A DNA stretch of 64,000 bases from contig NZ_LT629752.1 of NCBI RefSeq assembly GCF_900105145.1, forward strand, positions 682,001 to 746,000. Direction: 5' to 3'. Shown here piece by piece: positions 8,094-64,000 of this stretch. Made by a program: the position numbers and the translations under genes. The notes beneath the pieces are model-generated. The model ran no database searches. It worked only from the letters and a program-made list of their open reading frames with translations, and was not told where the DNA came from. The stretch comes from Polaribacter sp. KT25b. Lineage in GTDB: Bacteria > Bacteroidota > Bacteroidia > Flavobacteriales > Flavobacteriaceae. How positions within the stretch are numbered: the first letter of the stretch is position 1; the number at the start of each line of letters is the position of its first letter.

Positions 8094-8840
8094 ATGAAAA
8101 TATTAGTTTGTATTAGTCACGTTCCAGATACTACTTCAAAAATTAATTTTACAGATAACGATACTAAGTTTGATACAAATGGAGTTCAGTTTGTAATTAA
8201 TCCTTATGACGAATTTAGCCTTACAAGAGCAATGTGGTTTAAAGAAAAACAAGGAGCAACTGTAACTGTTGTTAATGTTGGTAACTCTACTACAGAACCT
8301 ACTTTACGTAAAGCTTTAGCAATAGGAGCAGATGACGCAATTCGTGTAAATATAGAGCCTACAGATGGTTTAGCTGTTGCTAAACAATTAGCAGAAGTTG
8401 TAAAAAACGGAGGTTATGATTTAGTTTTAGCAGGTAGAGAATCTATAGATTATAATGGAGGTATGGTTCCTGGAATGTTAGCAGCTTTATTAGATTACAA
8501 CTTTGTAAATGGTTGTATAGGTATTGAAGTTGAAGGGGAATCAGTTAAATTATCTAGAGAAATTGATGGAGGAACAGAAGATTTAAGTACTTTTTTGCCA
8601 TTAGTTGTTGCTGGACAAAAAGGTATTGTAGAAGAAAAAGATTTACGCATACCAAATATGCGTGGAATTATGATGGCTCGTAAAAAACCTTTAAATGTGG
8701 TAGAACCTGTTGATGCAGAAAGTGCAACATCAATTGTATCATTTGAAAAACCAGCAGCTAAAGGAGCTGTAAAATTAGTAGATGCAGATAATATAGATGA
8801 GTTAATTAGCTTATTACATAACGAAGCTAAAGTAATTTAA
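8094..8840 (+). CDS. etfB: Electron transfer flavoprotein subunit beta
   Basis: This subunit pairs with EtfA to carry electrons from acyl-CoA dehydrogenases to the respiratory chain. The 248 residues fit the family. Recognisable stretches are the N-terminal MKILVCISHVPDTTSKI, the nucleotide-binding region LRKALAIGADDAIRV, the family-conserved LAGRESIDYNGGMVPGMLA and a C-terminal RIPNMRGIMMARKKPL recognition loop. The etfA gene follows after 150 bp occupied by an octamer-repeat hairpin. The sequence gives no sign of an electron-bifurcating partner. Confidence 0.95.
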   Translation: MKILVCISHVPDTTSKINFTDNDTKFDTNGVQFVINPYDEFSLTRAMWFKEKQGATVTVVNVGNSTTEPTLRKALAIGADDAIRVNIEPTDGLAVAKQLAEVVKNGGYDLVLAGRESIDYNGGMVPGMLAALLDYNFVNGCIGIEVEGESVKLSREIDGGTEDLSTFLPLVVAGQKGIVEEKDLRIPNMRGIMMARKKPLNVVEPVDAESATSIVSFEKPAAKGAVKLVDADNIDELISLLHNEAKVI

Positions 8841-8904
8841 TTTTTACCAAAAATTAAATTATGCTGAACTTGTTTCAGTCTAAATAAAATAAAAATGTGA
8901 AAAT

Positions 8905-8978
8905 GTTTAAGCGTTGAATTGTGTAACTGTTAAAGTTATTTTCAACAATTACACGATTAAACAAATAAACAATTAAAC
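8905..8978. repeat. Inverted pair of degenerate octamer arrays between etfB and etfA
   Basis: Four consecutive 8-mers of the GTTTAATT type (8905-8936: GTTTAAGC, GTTGAATT, GTGTAACT, GTTAAAGT) are followed after 10 bp by four 8-mers of the complementary type (8947-8978: AATTACAC, GATTAAAC, AAATAAAC, AATTAAAC). The two arrays can fold into an imperfect hairpin just before the etfA start. Confidence 0.6.
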
Positions 8979-49961: not shown

Positions 49962-51911
<1,950 letters not shown>

Positions 51912-57057: not shown

Positions 57058-57098
57058 TTACAAAAAAAATCCTGCATAAAGCAGGATTTTTTTTGTAA
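57058..57098. terminator. Bidirectional terminator between hydrolase-GDPD and gatB::aspS
   Basis: An 18-bp perfect stem with core aaaaaaaatcctgc and its complement surrounds the loop ataaa. Both sides end in A- or T-runs, serving the two convergent genes. Confidence 0.88.
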
Positions 57099-57119: not shown

Positions 57120-60100
57120 TTATCTTATAATTCTCACATTCATTTCTTCTACTTTTTTATCAGATAAAGGAGAAGGAGCATTAAATAATAAATCTTCTGA
57201 AGTTCCTGTTTTTGGGAAAGCCATGACTTCTCTAATAGAAGCTTTCTTTTCTAAAATCATCATTAAACGATCAATTCCCCAAGCAATTCCTCCGTGTGGT
57301 GGCGCTCCATATTGAAACGCTTTGTACATCGTGCCAACGCTTTTCATCATTTCCTCTTTATTGTAACCCATATTTTTATAGGTTGCTTCTAAAATTTCTG
57401 CTTTATGTGCACGAACAGAACCTCCACCAATTTCATAACCGTTTAAGATTAAATCGTATTGTTGCGCGATAATGGTTCCAATTTCATCATCAGTATTGTT
57501 CATGTGTTTTTCTAAATCGTAGATGGCTGGCATAGAAAACGGATTGTGTGTAAACGTCCAACGTCCTTCGTCTGTTTTCTCAAACATCGGGAAATCTACC
57601 ACCCAAGCTGGTCTTAATTCTTTAGGGTTTATCAATTTTAAGATTCTTCCCATTTCTTGACGAACAGCATCTAATGCTTTATTTGCTGTTGCATAATCTG
57701 CTGCAGAGAAAAATACGATATCTCCTACTTGAGCATCTGTAGCTTTTATAATATTAGCTGCAATTTCTTCGCCTAAAAACTTAATAATTGGCGATTGTAA
57801 ATCATTTTCATTTACAATAATATACGCTAAACCACCTAAACCATTTTGTTGTGCAATGGCTGTTAAGTTTTCAATTTGACCTTTAGACATACGTTTGTTT
57901 CCTTGCTCTTCTGCAGAAACCTTAATACATTTTACAATTCCGCCATCATCAATAGGTTTGCTAAAAACTTGAAATGTGGTGTCTTTTACAATGTCTGTAA
58001 TGTCTTGCATTTGCAAACCATAACGTAAATCTGGTCTATCACAACCATATTTATCCATCGCATCTTTGTAGGTAATTATTTCAAATGGATGTAAAATCCA
58101 TTTTTTACCATAGATTTTTTTAACAACTTCGTTAAACATTTTGGTGTTTAAATCGATAATCTGTTGCATACTTGCGTATGCCATCTCAATATCTAGTTGT
58201 GTAAATTCAGGTTGACGATCTCCACGAGAATCTTCATCTCTAAAACAACGTGCAATTTGAAAATATTTTTCAAATCCACCAACCATTAACATTTGTTTAA
58301 ACTGCTGTGGCGCTTGTGGTAAAGTATAGAAAGAACCTGCTTGTTTTCTTGTTGGAACAATAAATTCTCTTGCACCTTCATCTGTTCCTGCAGTTAAAAT
58401 TGGTGTTTCAATTTCTAAGAATTCTTCTTCGTCTAAAACATCACGTAATAACTTAATTACTTTATGGCGATTTACAATTGCTTTACGAACATCATCATTT
58501 CTATGATCTAAAAACTTGTATTGAAAACGAACATTTTCATTCGATTTTGTAGCTTTCTTAATTTCAAAAGGAAGCGTTTTAGATAAGTTTAAGATTTCTA
58601 AAACAGCTGTTTCAAGCTCAATTTTACCTGTTCTTAAACCTGCATTGTAATCATCTTCTTTTCTTTGAACTACAACACCAGTAACCATAATTACTGTTTC
58701 TGGTTTTAATTTTACAAGTTCATCTAAATTAGGAAACGTTTCTCTACTTAAACGTACTTGAAAAATTTGATTGCTTGAATCGCGTAAATCAATAAAAATT
58801 AATTCACCATGATCTCGAACACTTGCAACCCAACCAGCTAAAGTAACTTCTTCATTAATAGAAGTTTCTGATAATTGAGAAATTTTATGAGTTCTATACT
58901 CTTCTTTTATTATTAGAGGAATTTGAGGTAAAATTTCTTCTAAGTTTCCTTTTTGACCTTCTTTATCCGCTTTTAATTGTTGGGTTTTAGCTGTTGGATG
59001 AGAACCAGTAGCTAAAGGCGAATGGCTAAGTGCTTTTAGAATTTCAGTTCTAATAACTTTACCTGATGCTCCTTTACCGATAATTGCAATTACTTTACCA
59101 ACAAGAATTCCTGCTTTACCTTGGTTTCCTGCTTTAATATCGTTGGCGATTGCTTCATTGTCTGCAATTACTTTTATAACGGCATCTTTTATTTTGTCTT
59201 CTGATATCGTATTGTCATCAAAATACTTTTTATAATCAAAAGTTCTGTCTTTTAAGTATGAAGTTATTCCGTTTTGAACTAAAACAGAAGTAATTTTATC
59301 TTCTTTAAATAATTGGAAAATTTCAGTTAAGTGTGCAATACTATGAATATTTGCATATTCATCTGCGCCAATATTATTTACCAATGTTTTTGCAACAAAA
59401 GATGGATCTTTAATTACATTATTAATCGCAATAAAAGTTTCTGAACGTAAAGAATCCGCAGTAAAAAACTTAGCATCTTGCGGTAAAACGCCACCTTTTA
59501 TCAGAATAGATTCTACAGCAAAAGGTAAAGAACTTACATCTACATCTATACTCTCTACAACTTGCTTAATATTTACAAAAGGTAAATCTGGTTCAGAAAT
59601 AAAACGATAATCTGCTTCAAATTCCTTTGTACGCATTGTTTTGGTTTGCTTTAAATCGGCATCCCATAAAACTGTAGTTTGTTCTGGTCTAAACTCTTTA
59701 TGTTCTATAAAATAGTTAAGTTGTTTCTCAATTTCTTCCTTCAAAGCATCCACCATAAACTTAAACGAATTCAAGTTTTTAATTTCTGTTCTTGGATTTA
59801 AATGATACGTATGTTTTTTTCTAAGTGATACAGAAACATCAGATTTAAACTCACCTTTTTCAAGATTTGCTTCTGATATTTTTAAATTCTGAACAATTCT
59901 CTGAATATATTGTGCGTAGGTCGATGCATCTTCGATATGGCGAATACAAGGATCGGTTACAATTTCTATTAAAGGAACTCCAGCTTTATTAAAATCGACT
60001 AAAGAAACTTTCTTTTCATGCATCAATTTTGCAGCATCTTCCTCAATATGAACTTGGGTTAAAGTCACTGTAAATTGAGATCCATCATTTCTATAACAAG

Positions 60101-60455
60101 AAACTTGACCGTCTGGAATTACAGGATTATGAAACTGCGTAATTTGAATGTTCTTTGGATTATCTGGATACTCATAGTGCTTTCTATCCCAAGAAATAAC
60201 TTCATTTCTAAAAGTAGATTTTACTGCTTTTCCAAAATAAATAGCTTTTTTAATTGCTTCTTTATTGATGGATGGTAAAACGCCCATTTGTCCTGTGCAA
60301 ACAGAACATATATTGGTGTTTGGTTGTTCTATTTCTTGATTTGCGCAAGAACAGAATAACTTCGATTTTGTGTTTAAACGAACGTGTGTTTCAAGACCGA
60401 TTACTAACTCTAAATCGTGCTTTTTTAATAGCTTATTTAATTGTTCCAGTTCCAT
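57120..60455 (-). CDS. Fusion of amidotransferase subunit GatB and aspartyl-tRNA synthetase
   Basis: Residues 1 to about 480 are a complete GatB: the cradle domain (LELVIGLETHVRLNTKSKLF), the zinc site CSC with C50 and C53, and the helical plus YqeY tail ending near KVIRTEILKAL. After a hydrophilic linker of about 40 residues, 519-1111 are a complete bacterial-type AspRS: anticodon domain (VTLAGWVASVRDHGELIFID), motif 2 (RCFRDEDSRGDRQPEFTQLD at 737-756), GAD insertion and motif 3 (GGIAWGIDRLMMIL). His549 in RDHG is the residue found in non-discriminating AspRS. GatB selects mischarged tRNA for amidation, so the fusion joins charging to repair. The start overlaps the gatA stop by 1 bp. Confidence 0.93.
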   Translation of the reverse strand: MELEQLNKLLKKHDLELVIGLETHVRLNTKSKLFCSCANQEIEQPNTNICSVCTGQMGVLPSINKEAIKKAIYFGKAVKSTFRNEVISWDRKHYEYPDNPKNIQITQFHNPVIPDGQVSCYRNDGSQFTVTLTQVHIEEDAAKLMHEKKVSLVDFNKAGVPLIEIVTDPCIRHIEDASTYAQYIQRIVQNLKISEANLEKGEFKSDVSVSLRKKHTYHLNPRTEIKNLNSFKFMVDALKEEIEKQLNYFIEHKEFRPEQTTVLWDADLKQTKTMRTKEFEADYRFISEPDLPFVNIKQVVESIDVDVSSLPFAVESILIKGGVLPQDAKFFTADSLRSETFIAINNVIKDPSFVAKTLVNNIGADEYANIHSIAHLTEIFQLFKEDKITSVLVQNGITSYLKDRTFDYKKYFDDNTISEDKIKDAVIKVIADNEAIANDIKAGNQGKAGILVGKVIAIIGKGASGKVIRTEILKALSHSPLATGSHPTAKTQQLKADKEGQKGNLEEILPQIPLIIKEEYRTHKISQLSETSINEEVTLAGWVASVRDHGELIFIDLRDSSNQIFQVRLSRETFPNLDELVKLKPETVIMVTGVVVQRKEDDYNAGLRTGKIELETAVLEILNLSKTLPFEIKKATKSNENVRFQYKFLDHRNDDVRKAIVNRHKVIKLLRDVLDEEEFLEIETPILTAGTDEGAREFIVPTRKQAGSFYTLPQAPQQFKQMLMVGGFEKYFQIARCFRDEDSRGDRQPEFTQLDIEMAYASMQQIIDLNTKMFNEVVKKIYGKKWILHPFEIITYKDAMDKYGCDRPDLRYGLQMQDITDIVKDTTFQVFSKPIDDGGIVKCIKVSAEEQGNKRMSKGQIENLTAIAQQNGLGGLAYIIVNENDLQSPIIKFLGEEIAANIIKATDAQVGDIVFFSAADYATANKALDAVRQEMGRILKLINPKELRPAWVVDFPMFEKTDEGRWTFTHNPFSMPAIYDLEKHMNNTDDEIGTIIAQQYDLILNGYEIGGGSVRAHKAEILEATYKNMGYNKEEMMKSVGTMYKAFQYGAPPHGGIAWGIDRLMMILEKKASIREVMAFPKTGTSEDLLFNAPSPLSDKKVEEMNVRIIR

Positions 60456-61855
60456 TATATCGTATCTTTTAAGAAGTTAGCAAACTTCAAAACGAGTTCG
60501 TCATTATTTTTTGCAGCAGTAATCTGTAAGCCAGTTGCTGTTCCTTGAGGTATTGTTAAAGTTGGTAATTGTCCTAAACTAAAGCCAACTGTGTAAGCAT
60601 CCGATAAATACATTGCTAAAGGATCTTTTAAACTATCGCCAATTTTTGGTGGCGAATTTGGTGTTACTGGCGATAAAATAATATCAACTTCTTTAAAATC
60701 TTTTTCAAAATTATCAGCAATTTGATCTCTTAAATTCAATCCTTTTAAATAGATTTCATCAGAAAAACCTTGAGACAACACTTGATTTCCACCAACAATT
60801 CTACGTTTTGTTTCTTCAGAAAAGTTTTCTGAACGTGTTATAGAATACGTGTCTTTTAAATTATCACCTTCAATTCTTGCGCCGTAATTTGTGCCATCTA
60901 ATCTTGATAAATTAGAAGCCGTTTCTGCCATTGCTAACGTATAATAGGTAGAAACTAAAGTGTCAGCTTCAAAGAAATCTAGTTCTTTAACTTCAATTCC
61001 TTTTGCTTTTATTTTTTCTATGGATGCTAAAAAATCAGCTTTTACTTGCGCATCAATTGCATCGCTTTCTATAAAATTCTTAAAATAGCCAACTGTTTTT
61101 ATTTCATCAGCATTTAAAATATTGTCTTCTAAAATTGTTTCTGATTGATAAGTTGTCTGATCTTTTATATCCTTTCCACTCATCACATTTAAAACAATTC
61201 TAATATCTTCTATAGATTTTGCAATTGGCCCCACACAATCTGTTGACGATGCATATGCCATTAATCCAAACCTTGAAATTCTTCCATAAGAAGGTTTTAA
61301 TCCGAAGATTTTATTATAACCTGCTGGTTGACGAATTGAACCACCAGTATCTCCACCAATTGAAAAAACAGTAAAGTCTTTTGCAACATTTACGGCAGAA
61401 CCACCACTAGAACCACCAGAAACTAAATTGGTGTTTAGAGCATTTTTTACAGCTCCGAAAATGGTGTTTTCTGATGAAGAACCATGACCAAAACTATCGC
61501 AATTTTCTTTTACTAAAGGTATTGCTCCAGCGTCTAACAATTTTTGAATTGCAGTTGCTGTATATGAAGATTTGTAGTTTTTTAATAAATCTGAACTTGC
61601 AGTAGCTAAAGTGCCTTGCAACATATAAACATCTTTAATTCCAAAAGGAATTCCTTCTAGTAAACCAATTTCTTGTCCGTTTTCAATTTTAGCATCTACT
61701 TTAGTCGCTAATTCTAAAGCTAATGTATCTAAAAGAGCATTTACGGTATTGTGAGTGTTCGATTTTAATAAATCTAATCTGTCTTGCACTAATTTTGTAC
61801 AAGTTATTTCTTTGTTCATCAATTGCTGATGAATCTCGTGTATTTGCGATTTCAT
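60455..61855 (-). CDS. gatA: Glutamyl/aspartyl-tRNA amidotransferase subunit A
   Basis: GatA releases ammonia from glutamine or asparagine and feeds it to GatB. The 466-residue protein carries the amidase-signature triad in GIPFGIKDVY (Lys), NLVSGGSSGGSAVNVAKDFT (cis-Ser) and GGDTGGSIRQPAGYNKIFGL (nucleophile Ser). It lies 2 bp after gatC and overlaps gatB::aspS by 1 bp, which indicates translational coupling and fixed stoichiometry of the complex. Confidence 0.95.
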   Translation of the reverse strand: MKSQIHEIHQQLMNKEITCTKLVQDRLDLLKSNTHNTVNALLDTLALELATKVDAKIENGQEIGLLEGIPFGIKDVYMLQGTLATASSDLLKNYKSSYTATAIQKLLDAGAIPLVKENCDSFGHGSSSENTIFGAVKNALNTNLVSGGSSGGSAVNVAKDFTVFSIGGDTGGSIRQPAGYNKIFGLKPSYGRISRFGLMAYASSTDCVGPIAKSIEDIRIVLNVMSGKDIKDQTTYQSETILEDNILNADEIKTVGYFKNFIESDAIDAQVKADFLASIEKIKAKGIEVKELDFFEADTLVSTYYTLAMAETASNLSRLDGTNYGARIEGDNLKDTYSITRSENFSEETKRRIVGGNQVLSQGFSDEIYLKGLNLRDQIADNFEKDFKEVDIILSPVTPNSPPKIGDSLKDPLAMYLSDAYTVGFSLGQLPTLTIPQGTATGLQITAAKNNDELVLKFANFLKDTI

Positions 61856-61857
61856 AA

Positions 61858-62127
61858 CTATTCTTCTATCACTTTTGCAACTACTAAATAGCCATTTTTT
61901 TCTTTCGGAAAGTTTTCAATAATGATTTGCTTTTCGGCATTAGGACTATCAATAACAACATCACTTCTTAAATCATCTAAAGAAACGGCATTATTATGAT
62001 TATTATTAAAAGAATTATTATTTATTGAATTGGCATTTTTTATGGATTCGAATAATTTATTCACAGACTCAGATGGCTGCGCTCCTTTAATACTAGACAA
62101 AATGTCTACAGTCATAATTTTACTCAT
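61858..62127 (-). CDS. gatC: Amidotransferase subunit GatC, divergent, Asn-rich
   Basis: The 89-residue protein is recognised by its C-terminal half (SLDDLRSDVVIDSPNAEKQI, then FPKEKNGYLVVAKVIEE), which fits the GatC belt that wraps GatA and GatB, and by its position ahead of gatA. The usual N-terminal helices with an LSEEE-like motif are missing. In their place stands an Asn-rich segment: residues 31-46 contain ten Asn, all encoded by AAT. It may still bind GatA through the C-terminal extension. It is the first gene of the operon. Confidence 0.75.
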   Translation of the reverse strand: MSKIMTVDILSSIKGAQPSESVNKLFESIKNANSINNNSFNNNHNNAVSLDDLRSDVVIDSPNAEKQIIIENFPKEKNGYLVVAKVIEE

Positions 62128-62166: not shown

Positions 62167-62174
62167 CAAAACTA
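62167..62174 (-). promoter_or_regulatory. -7 promoter element for gatC operon
   Basis: The minus strand reads TAGTTTTG followed by CCGCC, matching TAnnTTTG, 39 bp before the gatC ATG. Confidence 0.5.
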
Positions 62175-62216
62175 CAAAAGTTTTAACTCTGATTAAAGTA
62201 TTATATAAATAAAACA

Positions 62217-62247
62217 CACCAACAATTTAAGTAGTAAATCATTGGTG
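62217..62247 (-). terminator. Hairpin in the gatC upstream region
   Basis: On the minus strand CACCAA-tg-ATTTA pairs with TAAAT-tg-TTGGTG around a 5-nt loop (one 2-nt mismatch) and is followed by GTTTTATTT. It looks like a weak terminator that would end a short transcript from the box at 62294-62301. Confidence 0.45.
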
Positions 62248-62273
62248 CGTTAATTAATTCAGTAAATTCAAAT

Positions 62274-62453: not shown

Positions 62454-62485
62454 TTTGTTCAAATAGAAATTGCTTTCTACATTTG
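62454..62485 (+). promoter_or_regulatory. trp promoter
   Basis: TTG (62454-62456), 21 bp and TACATTTG (62478-62485) match the Bacteroidota consensus. Transcription should begin around 62491, at or beside the leader-peptide ATG. Confidence 0.65.
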
Positions 62486-62492
62486 TACCTCA

Positions 62493-62543
62493 ATGAAAAA
62501 CAATACAAAAAATACATGGTGGTGGAACTCTCTTATTAAATAA
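62493..62543 (+). CDS. trpL: trp leader peptide
   Basis: The 16-codon frame MKNNTKNTWWWNSLIK ends at TAA (62541-62543) and has three consecutive TGG codons at 62517-62525. A terminator hairpin follows 33 bp later and trpE after 174 bp. This is the layout of ribosome-stalling attenuation: low tryptophanyl-tRNA stops the ribosome on the Trp codons. The ATG is only 8 bp after the -7 box, so the message has almost no 5' leader and is probably translated without a Shine-Dalgarno site. Confidence 0.85.
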   Translation: MKNNTKNTWWWNSLIK

Positions 62544-62575
62544 GTGAGAAGTATACTATATGTAAAAATATAATA

Positions 62576-62603
62576 AAAAGGCTTATCTCACGATAAGCCT
62601 TTT
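62576..62603 (+). terminator. trp attenuator terminator
   Basis: A 12-bp perfect stem (aaaaggcttatc / gataagcctttt) with loop TCAC is followed by CGCTTTTTATT. An alternative pairing is visible: GTGAGA at 62544-62549, just after the leader stop, can pair with TCTCAC at 62586-62591 and break the terminator. Confidence 0.8.
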
Positions 62604-62618
62604 CGCTTTTTATTAAGC

Positions 62619-62703
62619 GTCATTACGAGGAGTTTACAACAAAGTAATCTCTTTATAAATAAACAGATTGCCACAGCAAATTAAATTTTTGCTTCGCAAT
62701 GAC
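62619..62703. repeat. GTCATTRCGAGG-type dispersed inverted repeat
   Basis: The element starts gtcattacgagg and ends cttcgcaatgac, with inner parts AGTAATCT and CAGATTGC that are also complementary. It matches, from memory, a repeat (GTCATTGCGAGGA...GAAGCAATC) scattered in many bacterial genomes. It occupies the gap between the attenuator and trpE. Confidence 0.7.
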
Positions 62704-62716
62704 ACATAATAGAAGA

Positions 62717-64000
62717 ATGAAAAAAATACAATTTAAAACAATTTCTAAAACAAAAATGGCAGACACAGTTACACCTGTAGGTTTGTATTTACGTTTTAGA
62801 GATAAATACGCTAACACTTTGTTGTTAGAAAGCTCAGACTATCATAGTAAAGACGAAAGTTTTTCTTTTATAGCAATAGATCCTGTGGTTTCTATAAAAG
62901 CAGAAAATCATCATTTAAGTTTTTCTCATAAAGGAGTTGAGTTAGAAAATAAAGAAATAGGAAGAGATTTTAACGCAATTTTCGAAAGTTACAGTCAAAC
63001 AATAGATTTAGATTGTCCTGCAGAATTAAAATCATTTAACGGTTTGTATGGTTATACAACCTATGATTCTGTTCAGTATTTCGAAAATATTGATTTAAAT
63101 GTAAAAGAAGCTCCATCTGCAATTCCTTTAATGCAGTACAGTTTTTACAGATTTATTATTGCTATCAATCATTTTAATGATGAAATGACATTGATAGAAA
63201 ATATTGAAGAAGGAACTGAATCGCGCATAAAAGAAATTCAATCAATTATAGATGCTCAGACATTTAATACGCAGAATTTCGAAATTGATGGAGAAGAAAC
63301 TTCAAATATAAAAGGAGAAGAATTTATAGAATATGTAAAGAAAGCAAAATCTCATTGTAAAAGAGGAGACGTTTTTCAACTTGTTTTATCACGCCAATTT
63401 CAACAAAAATTTAAAGGAGATGAATTTAATGTGTATAGAGCATTACGTTCTATAAATCCATCACCATATTTATTTTATTTCGATTATGGTTCTTTTAAAT
63501 TAATGGGATCTTCACCAGAAGCACAAATTAAAATTTCTGCGGGTAAAGCAACTATTAATCCAATTGCAGGTACTTTTAGAAGAACTGGTGATATGGCAAA
63601 AGATATTTTGTTAGGAAAAAAATTATCTGCAGATAAAAAAGAAACTGCAGAACATGTAATGTTGGTAGATTTAGCTCGTAATGATTTAAGTAAACATGCA
63701 GATAATGTAGAAGTTGAGGTATTTAAAGAAGTGCAATATTTTAGTCACGTAATTCACTTGGTTTCTACAGTTTCTGGTCAGTTAAAAGGAAACCCAATAG
63801 AAATTGTTGGAGACACTTTTCCTGCAGGAACTTTAAGTGGAGCACCAAAATACAAGGCAATGCAATTAATAGATACTTATGAGAACCAATCTCGTGGGTT
63901 TTATGGAGGAGCAGTAGGTATTATTGGTTTAGACGGTTCTGTAAATTTGGCAATTGCAATTCGTTCTTTTGTAAGTAAAAACAACGTTTTATATTACCAA
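62717..64000 (+). CDS. trpE: Anthranilate synthase component I (3' end cut off)
   Basis: TrpE with its glutaminase partner TrpG converts chorismate to anthranilate, the first step of tryptophan synthesis. 428 codons are visible from the ATG at 62717. The tryptophan feedback site is in NTLLLESSDYHSKDESFSFI. The catalytic domain has FQLVLSRQFQQKF, SPYLFYFDYGSFKLMGSSPE, NPIAGTFRRTGD, DLARNDL and PAGTLSGAPKYKAMQLI, and only the last part is missing. Expression is governed by the upstream Trp attenuator. The rest of the trp operon presumably follows beyond the window. Confidence 0.96.
   Translation, partial: MKKIQFKTISKTKMADTVTPVGLYLRFRDKYANTLLLESSDYHSKDESFSFIAIDPVVSIKAENHHLSFSHKGVELENKEIGRDFNAIFESYSQTIDLDCPAELKSFNGLYGYTTYDSVQYFENIDLNVKEAPSAIPLMQYSFYRFIIAINHFNDEMTLIENIEEGTESRIKEIQSIIDAQTFNTQNFEIDGEETSNIKGEEFIEYVKKAKSHCKRGDVFQLVLSRQFQQKFKGDEFNVYRALRSINPSPYLFYFDYGSFKLMGSSPEAQIKISAGKATINPIAGTFRRTGDMAKDILLGKKLSADKKETAEHVMLVDLARNDLSKHADNVEVEVFKEVQYFSHVIHLVSTVSGQLKGNPIEIVGDTFPAGTLSGAPKYKAMQLIDTYENQSRGFYGGAVGIIGLDGSVNLAIAIRSFVSKNNVLYYQ

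Follow-up and report, generated by a model that had tools for sequence, protein, structure and literature searches.

The window analysed here is a 64,000-nucleotide stretch of the Polaribacter sp. KT25b genome (contig NZ_LT629752.1, positions 682,001 to 746,000; family Flavobacteriaceae). It holds a reverse-strand operon of three genes: gatC, gatA and a fusion of gatB with aspS, which joins a subunit of the amidotransferase GatCAB to an aspartyl-tRNA synthetase (AspRS) in a single polypeptide. The operon is made up of the following features.

57120..60455, reverse strand: gatB::aspS fusion gene, 1,111 aa, ATG start, single open frame
59019..60455, reverse strand: GatB half (residues 1–479), catalytic domain with Cys35, Cys37, Cys50 and Cys53, helical domain and YqeY tail (PF02934, PF02637)
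58902..59012, reverse strand: linker (residues 482–518), a variable, probable tether with a mean conservation of 0.51
57120..58901, reverse strand: bacterial-type AspRS half (residues 519–1111), OB anticodon domain, class II core and GAD insertion (Pfam, PDB)
58809..58811, reverse strand: codon of His549, aligned with His31 of Pseudomonas aeruginosa AspRS
60455..61855, reverse strand: gatA, 466 aa, glutaminase subunit (Pfam Amidase; GGSSGGSA and TGGSIRQPA stretches aligned to 4wj3_A)
61858..62127, reverse strand: gatC, 89 aa, short, with an Asn-rich stretch and an LRxD motif (operon position, alignment)

The fused gene and its operon

The GatB-AspRS fusion in a gatC-gatA operon is real. Its frame runs without an internal stop across all 1,111 codons of the window sequence, overlapping gatA by 1 bp, with a gap of 2 bp between gatC and gatA, and the order gatC-gatA-gatB::aspS recurs in 41 of 41 other operons, where the fused frame is likewise uninterrupted (1,108–1,116 aa). 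Pfam places GatB_N at residues 17–298, GatB_Yqey at 371–476, an OB fold at 537–602, tRNA-synt_2 at 639–1083 and GAD at 831–928, and NCBIfam scores both halves above their cut-offs (GatB NF004012, 392 bits against 338; AspRS NF001750, 721 bits against 443). The GatB catalytic domain, its four cysteines and the YqeY tail are all found, and the AspRS half, with OB fold, class II core and GAD insertion present, is of the bacterial type by Pfam, NCBIfam and PDB comparison; the archaeal-type non-discriminating AspRS model TIGR00458 gives 191 bits, below its cut-off of 368. A preliminary description, made from the letters of the window alone, had proposed an uninterrupted frame with two complete enzyme halves in an operon of this spacing, and these results bear it out.

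Across 42 aligned fusions, Cys35, Cys37, Cys50 and Cys53, to which we assign a presumed zinc role, are invariant, as are His549 and the RCFRDED motif (42/42). The linker (residues 482–518) is the segment of lowest conservation (0.51 against 0.76–0.97 elsewhere, the single last residue aside), a variability that, as expected, would fit a tether. Among solved structures, the GatB half matches the GatB chains of 3h0l, 3al0, 3kfu and 4wj3, and the AspRS half and GatA both have their best relatives in the Asn-transamidosome of P. aeruginosa (PDB 4wj3/4wj4 for AspRS, 4wj3 for GatA), whose AspRS is bacterial-type too. There, AspRS and GatB are separate PDB chains, whereas the window encodes one chain. 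GatA matches Pfam Amidase with an E-value of 7e-110, and its signature stretches, which we take to carry the Lys/Ser/Ser amidase signature, align with 4wj3_A and 3h0l_A. A covalent fusion of AspRS with a Gat subunit is also modelled by NCBIfam NF009460/PRK12820 (bifunctional AspRS/GatC), with another subunit and another order; the fusion scores 466 against the 1,379 cut-off of this model, through its AspRS part.

Other GatB-AspRS fusions, which the preliminary description suggested searching for, are common in part of the family and already named in databases: the NCBI product name 'bifunctional amidotransferase subunit GatB/aspartate--tRNA ligase AspS' is in use. At E <= 1e-3, 3,086 of 7,998 scored candidates match the fusion, and among the 120 matches listed all are fusions of 1,109–1,114 aa, which shows that the fusion is not a chance event; its nearest named relatives are from Polaribacter. 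A search of the open literature, which mostly did not cover subscription papers, found no paper on what the fusion does, on how it and asnB exclude each other, on the chromosomal site or on the leader, though no search was aimed at asparagine leaders as such. GatB occurs in 42 of 239 family genomes, every time in a frame of 1,115–1,130 aa and hence fused, including 41 of 41 genomes other than the window's. In a survey of the phylum the full fusion was present in 4 of 392 genomes, all four among the 44 of the window's family (0/348 others). Across the class, GatB was found in 211 of 276 genomes, and among the matches listed the frames are mostly 480–550 aa, with a few of 316, 681 and 759 aa. 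Frames of 1,111–1,122 aa were also found at named loci in Wenyingzhuangia gilva, Flavobacterium restrictum, Aestuariibaculum suncheonense and Seonamhaeicola sp., and uncultured Flavobacteriaceae, an Algibacter among them, supplied three more fusions at 62–63% identity to the query. Eight genomes of family f13 (G011, G053, G088, G117, G144, G168, G190 and G212) have fusion-like GatB_N E-values of 1e-93 to 1e-99 against the usual 1e-115. Two genomes of genus g2 (G669 and G627, loci L278 and L279) carry the fusion without an Asn leader, and the other g2 members sampled are without the fusion.

Asparagine synthesis genes and a shared chromosomal site

Genome-wide profile searches of the window's genome found no AsnA and no canonical AsnB. 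LysRS, AsnRS, GluRS, GlnRS and a stand-alone AspRS that shares 39% identity with the fused copy, all named from their sequences, are present, and two weak PF00733 matches are a 530-aa protein that has no N-terminal Cys and another that reads as MnmA. The preliminary description had invoked bacteria that lack AsnRS or asparagine synthetase; the asparagine synthetases are indeed missing, but AsnRS is there, as are the other genes it named for checking, glnS and a second aspS. A missing AsnRS is thereby ruled out as the reason for the operon in this genome, and the presence of AsnRS together with the absence of AsnA and canonical AsnB argues that the operon serves a need for asparagine itself and does not make up for an absent AsnRS. 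Since GlnRS is present, there is no evident need for amidation of Glu-tRNA(Gln). The route put forward earlier, in which AspRS and GatCAB act by amidation of Asp-tRNA(Asn), would best explain this gene content, judging from the genomes.

Gene content was compared across 80 family genomes: the 42 that carry the fusion and 38 of the 197 that do not. A match in two pieces, the first at about 175–187 bits, was counted as canonical AsnB. Canonical AsnB is found in none of the 42 fusion genomes and in 34 of the 38 others (two of these 34 are more distant, at 48% and 70% to the query), while AsnA, also absent from all 42, is present in exactly the remaining 4 of 38. One or the other is therefore present in 38/38 genomes without the fusion and 0/42 with it, and 27 of the 42 have no PF00733 match at all at 1e-10. 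AspRS is present in two copies in 42/42 fusion genomes and in one copy in 37/38 others; none was found in G305.

AsnRS was found in 39 of 42 fusion genomes and 37 of 38 others; by one search method, no match was obtained in G412, G450 and G458, which have the fusion, or in G305, which does not. Because G305, an assembly of about 320 contigs in which an AspRS match is missing as well, also has no AsnRS match, the numbers for AsnRS loss are by themselves not significant. Of the three fusion genomes, G412 and G450 group as sisters in the AspRS tree, the latter lying near Wenyingzhuangia. If the absence is real, no source of Asn-tRNA(Asn) other than the fusion would be evident in the G412/G450 and G458 lineages.

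The fusion operon and asnB mostly occupy the same chromosomal neighbourhood, whose flanks in the window are as follows.

62699..64000, forward strand: trpE, running off the window, flank of the exchanged site (locus comparison)
49962..51899, reverse strand: gyrB, flank of the exchanged site (locus comparison)

In stretches of 10–20 kb fetched around the fusion or canonical asnB, gyrB is present at 39 of 44 fusion loci and 25 of 34 asnB loci, where chance proximity is estimated at about 1% or less for a genome of some 3.5 Mb. The window reads trpE-gat operon-two genes-gyrB-mdh, and its congener G125 reads trpE-asnB-pyc-CPBP-type gene-gyrB-mdh. Similarly, in genus g195 the operon of G485 and the asnB of G314 each lie near a recQ-like gene, 51–52% identical to that of the window. 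The operon is inverted relative to gyrB in 38 of 39 gyrB-bearing loci, with the opposite orientation in L278 and the window. As judged from these comparisons, a locus for asparagine synthesis, mostly near gyrB, holds either the operon or asnB in this family; the two have been exchanged several times, and recombination in place is the likeliest route of exchange. A tree of the operon disagrees in part with the organism tree, with weak support, and was not used as proof.

Asparagine-codon leaders in related operons

Upstream of gatC, 24 of 42 operons have a short open reading frame (ORF) of the type MxNNNNNNFNNPN, with 8–10 Asn codons, followed in 24/24 by a rho-independent terminator. When the segments are folded separately, a pause hairpin, an antiterminator and a terminator can form in 24/24, the antiterminator using a GGAAGG copy that competes for the CCTTCC arm of the terminator. 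Alignment cells are paired in 97% for the terminator and 95% for the antiterminator, with the structure taken from one row, and covariation in the leader hairpins is modest because their arms hardly vary. As a control, short ORFs with at least 5 Asn occurred in 47 of 840 rough block shuffles. Leaders with at least 7 Asn were found in 0/31 aspS upstream regions and 2/34 asnB upstream regions, and an Asn-rich leader (5–8 Asn) with a terminator precedes asnB in 4/34. Ten further loci were inspected: the leader is present in L277 (G840, of the window's genus), L182 and L184, the last two repeating G304 and G366; L185 holds the hairpin part only, and L179, L180, L181, L183, L278 and L279 have no leader. 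Rfam found no family at gathering score on L091, L096, L105 and L121.

In attenuators, a short ORF with many codons for the amino acid under control precedes competing hairpins and a terminator. The operon in many relatives appears to be preceded by such a leader-peptide attenuator built on asparagine codons: ribosomes stalling at Asn codons for want of Asn-tRNA would favour the antiterminator and switch the operon on. Known attenuators such as the Bacteroid-trp leader (RF01692) share the short amino-acid-rich ORF, the competing hairpins and the terminator, but the poly-Asn leader before gatC differs from RF01692 in peptide and gene, as does the Asn-rich one before asnB. An RF01692 match lies in the window itself, at 62473–62587 on the forward strand, 5' of trpE and adjoining the exchanged site.

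Sixteen of the 18 leaderless operons, the window's included, have at positions −41 to −57 a motif of the type TAnnTTTG, which we take to be the promoter consensus, and two of the leaderless operons, L089 and L092, do carry a terminator-like hairpin. In the window the signals around the operon are as follows.

62169..62181, reverse strand: promoter-like motif of the TAnnTTTG type, beginning 54 nt 5' of gatC (motif match)
57058..57098, reverse strand: terminator-like hairpin directly 3' of the fusion stop codon, 18-pair stem with a T run

Additionally, a 17-pair stem-loop with a T-rich tail lies at 62213–62251 on the reverse strand, about 90–120 nt upstream of gatC. The window's GatC has an Asn-rich stretch of its own at residues 33–46 (61990–62031, reverse strand). 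The window and 41 operon loci together contain 475 ORFs, of which 36 reach 7 or more Asn within 17 residues, and 34 of these encode this GatC; its linker is 40% Asn over 42 operons, compared with 5% for the linker of GatB-AspRS. Asn codons in the GatC linker are 288 AAT to 44 AAC, and elsewhere in gatC 73 to 81; this Asn run might act as a regulator, but a search of the gene's strand found no terminator-like site between it and gatA.

Function of the fused enzyme and origin of its AspRS half

We consider it very likely that the products of the operon form a covalent asparagine transamidosome and serve tRNA-dependent asparagine biosynthesis. The AspRS half would load aspartate onto tRNA(Asn) as well as tRNA(Asp), that is, be non-discriminating, and the GatC-GatA-fusion assembly would amidate Asp-tRNA(Asn) to Asn-tRNA(Asn), with the mischarged tRNA channelled between the two. 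AspRS is normally dimeric and two GatCAB units assemble in known transamidosomes; given the AspRS dimer, the particle would be expected to be (GatC-GatA-GatB::AspRS)2. Most hosts retain an AsnRS, for free asparagine, alongside a second AspRS; asparagine itself, for want of a canonical asparagine synthetase, would come from the fusion route. The fusion, operon, gene content, exclusivity, shared locus and leader are read from sequence, and from them we infer non-discriminating charging, amidation, channelling, stoichiometry and regulation. Non-discriminating charging in particular is suggested by the gene content, the lack of a need for Glu-tRNA(Gln), the Asn leaders of relatives and His549. The position of His549, aligned to His31 of P. 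aeruginosa AspRS, is His in 42/42 fusions and Lys in 6/6 stand-alone AspRSs of the family; we take His31 and Gly82 of P. aeruginosa AspRS to be discrimination-related sites, which makes His549 a suggestive sign, while the Asp of the fusion at the presumed Gly82 site leaves that clue neutral.

P. aeruginosa is without AsnRS and asparagine synthetase, according to the accessible sections of PMC6523644, whereas the window's genome has AsnRS. In the sections accessible of a gene-content study (PMC4206432), 18 of 547 genera, Bacteroidetes among them, have AsnRS, GlnRS and GatCAB and no asparagine synthetase, and a second AspRS is given for 5 of these 18, all Deinococcus-Thermus; these sections make no mention of a GatB-AspRS fusion. 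The scheme described there for Deinococcus and Thermus, a second non-discriminating AspRS and GatCAB beside AsnRS and GlnRS, resembles that of the window's genome in gene content and inferred purpose, but the second AspRS is archaeal-type and free there and bacterial-type and fused here. For Bdellovibrio bacteriovorus, the same sections report tRNA-dependent asparagine synthesis beside AsnRS and GlnRS by experiment, which bears out, for that organism, gene-content logic of the kind used here; by analogy it lends support to our reading, with the difference that one AspRS does both jobs there and the window's genome has two, one of them fused. The study also gives a tRNA(Asn) with U1-A72 as a criterion of tRNA-dependent asparagine biosynthesis; the 64-kb window contains no tRNA gene.

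Several observations weigh against this account, or against parts of it. GatA scores 430 bits in TIGR00132, below the cut-off of 481, and GatC is divergent: the window's own protein reaches only an E-value of 0.025 in Pfam GatC (15.2 bits against a cut-off of 23), and among its PDB matches there is no GatC. Pfam GatC does match 8 of 9 members of its family, with a best E-value of 3e-5, and R54 and D56 are invariant in nine aligned sequences; the invariant Arg and Asp of Staphylococcus aureus GatC are R64 and D66 in the accessible part of PMC4027206. A Staphylococcus AspRS has Leu at the His549 position, so that His549 is not decisive, the S. aureus enzyme being called non-discriminating in the accessible part of PMC6523644. 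Canonical AsnB was defined after the survey data had been seen, and 15 of 42 fusion genomes hold 18 other AsnB-like proteins; at no more than 34% identity to seven canonical ones, these were rejected as hidden canonical AsnBs, and they may possibly belong to polysaccharide loci. No Asn leader was found in the 330 nt upstream of gatC searched in the window, whose operon is one of the 18 of 42 lacking it. The shared site is incomplete, with no gyrB at 5/44 fusion loci and 9/34 asnB loci, and the asnB of G125 (L130, about 8760–8930) looks frame-broken near its start, by decay or sequencing error. Finally, split copies of the fusion exist in databases; two of them, P0256 (499 aa) and P0260 (515 aa), stop within the linker after leaving the frame.

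These split copies are what might favour reading the fused frame as an artefact of assembly, or as two genes with a misread stop between them. They include pairs on equal-sized contigs (P0260/P0168, the latter an AspRS piece of 567 aa; P0270/P0177; P0277/P0197; P0288/P0182), and they may be either sequencing errors or real breaks through natural fission, but their break points vary, two lying in the linker and those of other pairs elsewhere. With the same frame kept in all 41 other operons and the window's genome a single contig, 99.99% complete, we regard an artefact or split gene as ruled out for the window, its residual chance being vanishingly small. That the correlation is merely phylogenetic, one clade having inherited the fusion and lost asnB once, so that exclusivity says little on function, is improbable. 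The two states do cluster when mapped on a stand-alone AspRS tree, where the fusion label needs 7 changes against 26.9 in shuffles; on this tree, a quick one-protein one, at least 4 changes are nevertheless forced by starred branches, both states occur inside two genera (G000/G125 and G485/G314), and fusion and asnB mostly share one neighbourhood.

A discriminating AspRS half, in a complex serving Gln-tRNA(Gln) formation or some other amidation, is less probable still: GatCAB is generally able to amidate Glu-tRNA(Gln) and GatB models name both uses, but GlnRS is present in the window's genome, the surveyed genomes that lack both AsnA and canonical AsnB are exactly those that carry the fusion, and relatives have leaders with Asn codons. 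Much harder to dismiss, though we would not expect it to prevail, is a fusion that makes Asn-tRNA(Asn) while its tether only fixes the enzyme ratio or expression, the mischarged tRNA being released and recaptured. The variable linker would suit this, as would the fact that separate enzymes suffice elsewhere, according to the accessible sections of PMC4206432; the joint, however, is kept in 42/42 GatB genes of the family survey. This is an indirect test, and split database copies exist.

Within the transamidosome reading, a wider scenario can be sketched, to which we give somewhat less than even credence. A covalent transamidosome with a Patescibacteria-like AspRS would have spread in the family, recombining in place for asnB and often bringing its own Asn attenuator; in the G450/G412 and G458 lineages AsnRS would have been lost, so that all asparagine of the proteome would be made on tRNA by the fused enzyme, with channelling built in. 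Known transamidosomes are complexes of separate enzymes, whereas here two catalytic partners share one chain, which would make channelling of the mischarged tRNA testable by cutting one linker. The exchange with asnB would amount to a natural experiment in which asparagine synthesis as a free amino acid and on tRNA has been swapped between close relatives, sometimes within a genus, and the Asn leader in relatives suggests that the cells treat a protein-synthesis enzyme as an amino-acid biosynthetic operon. Bacteria with the fusion should not be called asparagine auxotrophs from their genomes.

The AspRS half is likely not the host's own. On the AspRS tree, the fused AspRSs share one group (100/100) with an unfused AspRS from Peregrinibacteria (P0196, 62% identical) and with six AspRS records that have Trp where Gly is conserved; this group stands apart from the stand-alone AspRS of the family. 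A recent duplication of the host AspRS is ruled out by the 39% identity and these separate places on the tree. P0196 nests among the fusions with moderate support (86/86, 92/93). A transfer in which Patescibacteria took part, in either direction, is likely. Speaking against a simple donor story, a Bacteroidota AspRS on a long branch (L153, family f88) is sister of the group (100/96), which weakens any claim of a donor, and six other Patescibacteria AspRSs fall elsewhere on the tree. Between the nesting of P0196 and the placement of L153, no single named donor was settled on. Several rows of the tree carry composition warnings, and the rows P0182 and P0193, labelled fused, are pieces beginning in the GatB tail.

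For the GatB half, complete unfused GatBs in the database list are about 33–38% identical over at least 96% of its length, and the closer matches inspected (P0256, P0260, P0277, P0290 and P0294) are pieces of fusions. The six records with Trp at conserved Gly positions (P0222, P0224, P0225, P0228, P0231 and P0233) are likely to come from Patescibacteria that use UGA for glycine, read with UGA as Trp. Also, P0206 (1,009 aa, partial) is a fused GatB-AspRS with a GatB half that appears to be of a more usual type (FYPDLPKAYQISQYEEP), lying outside the main fusion clade.

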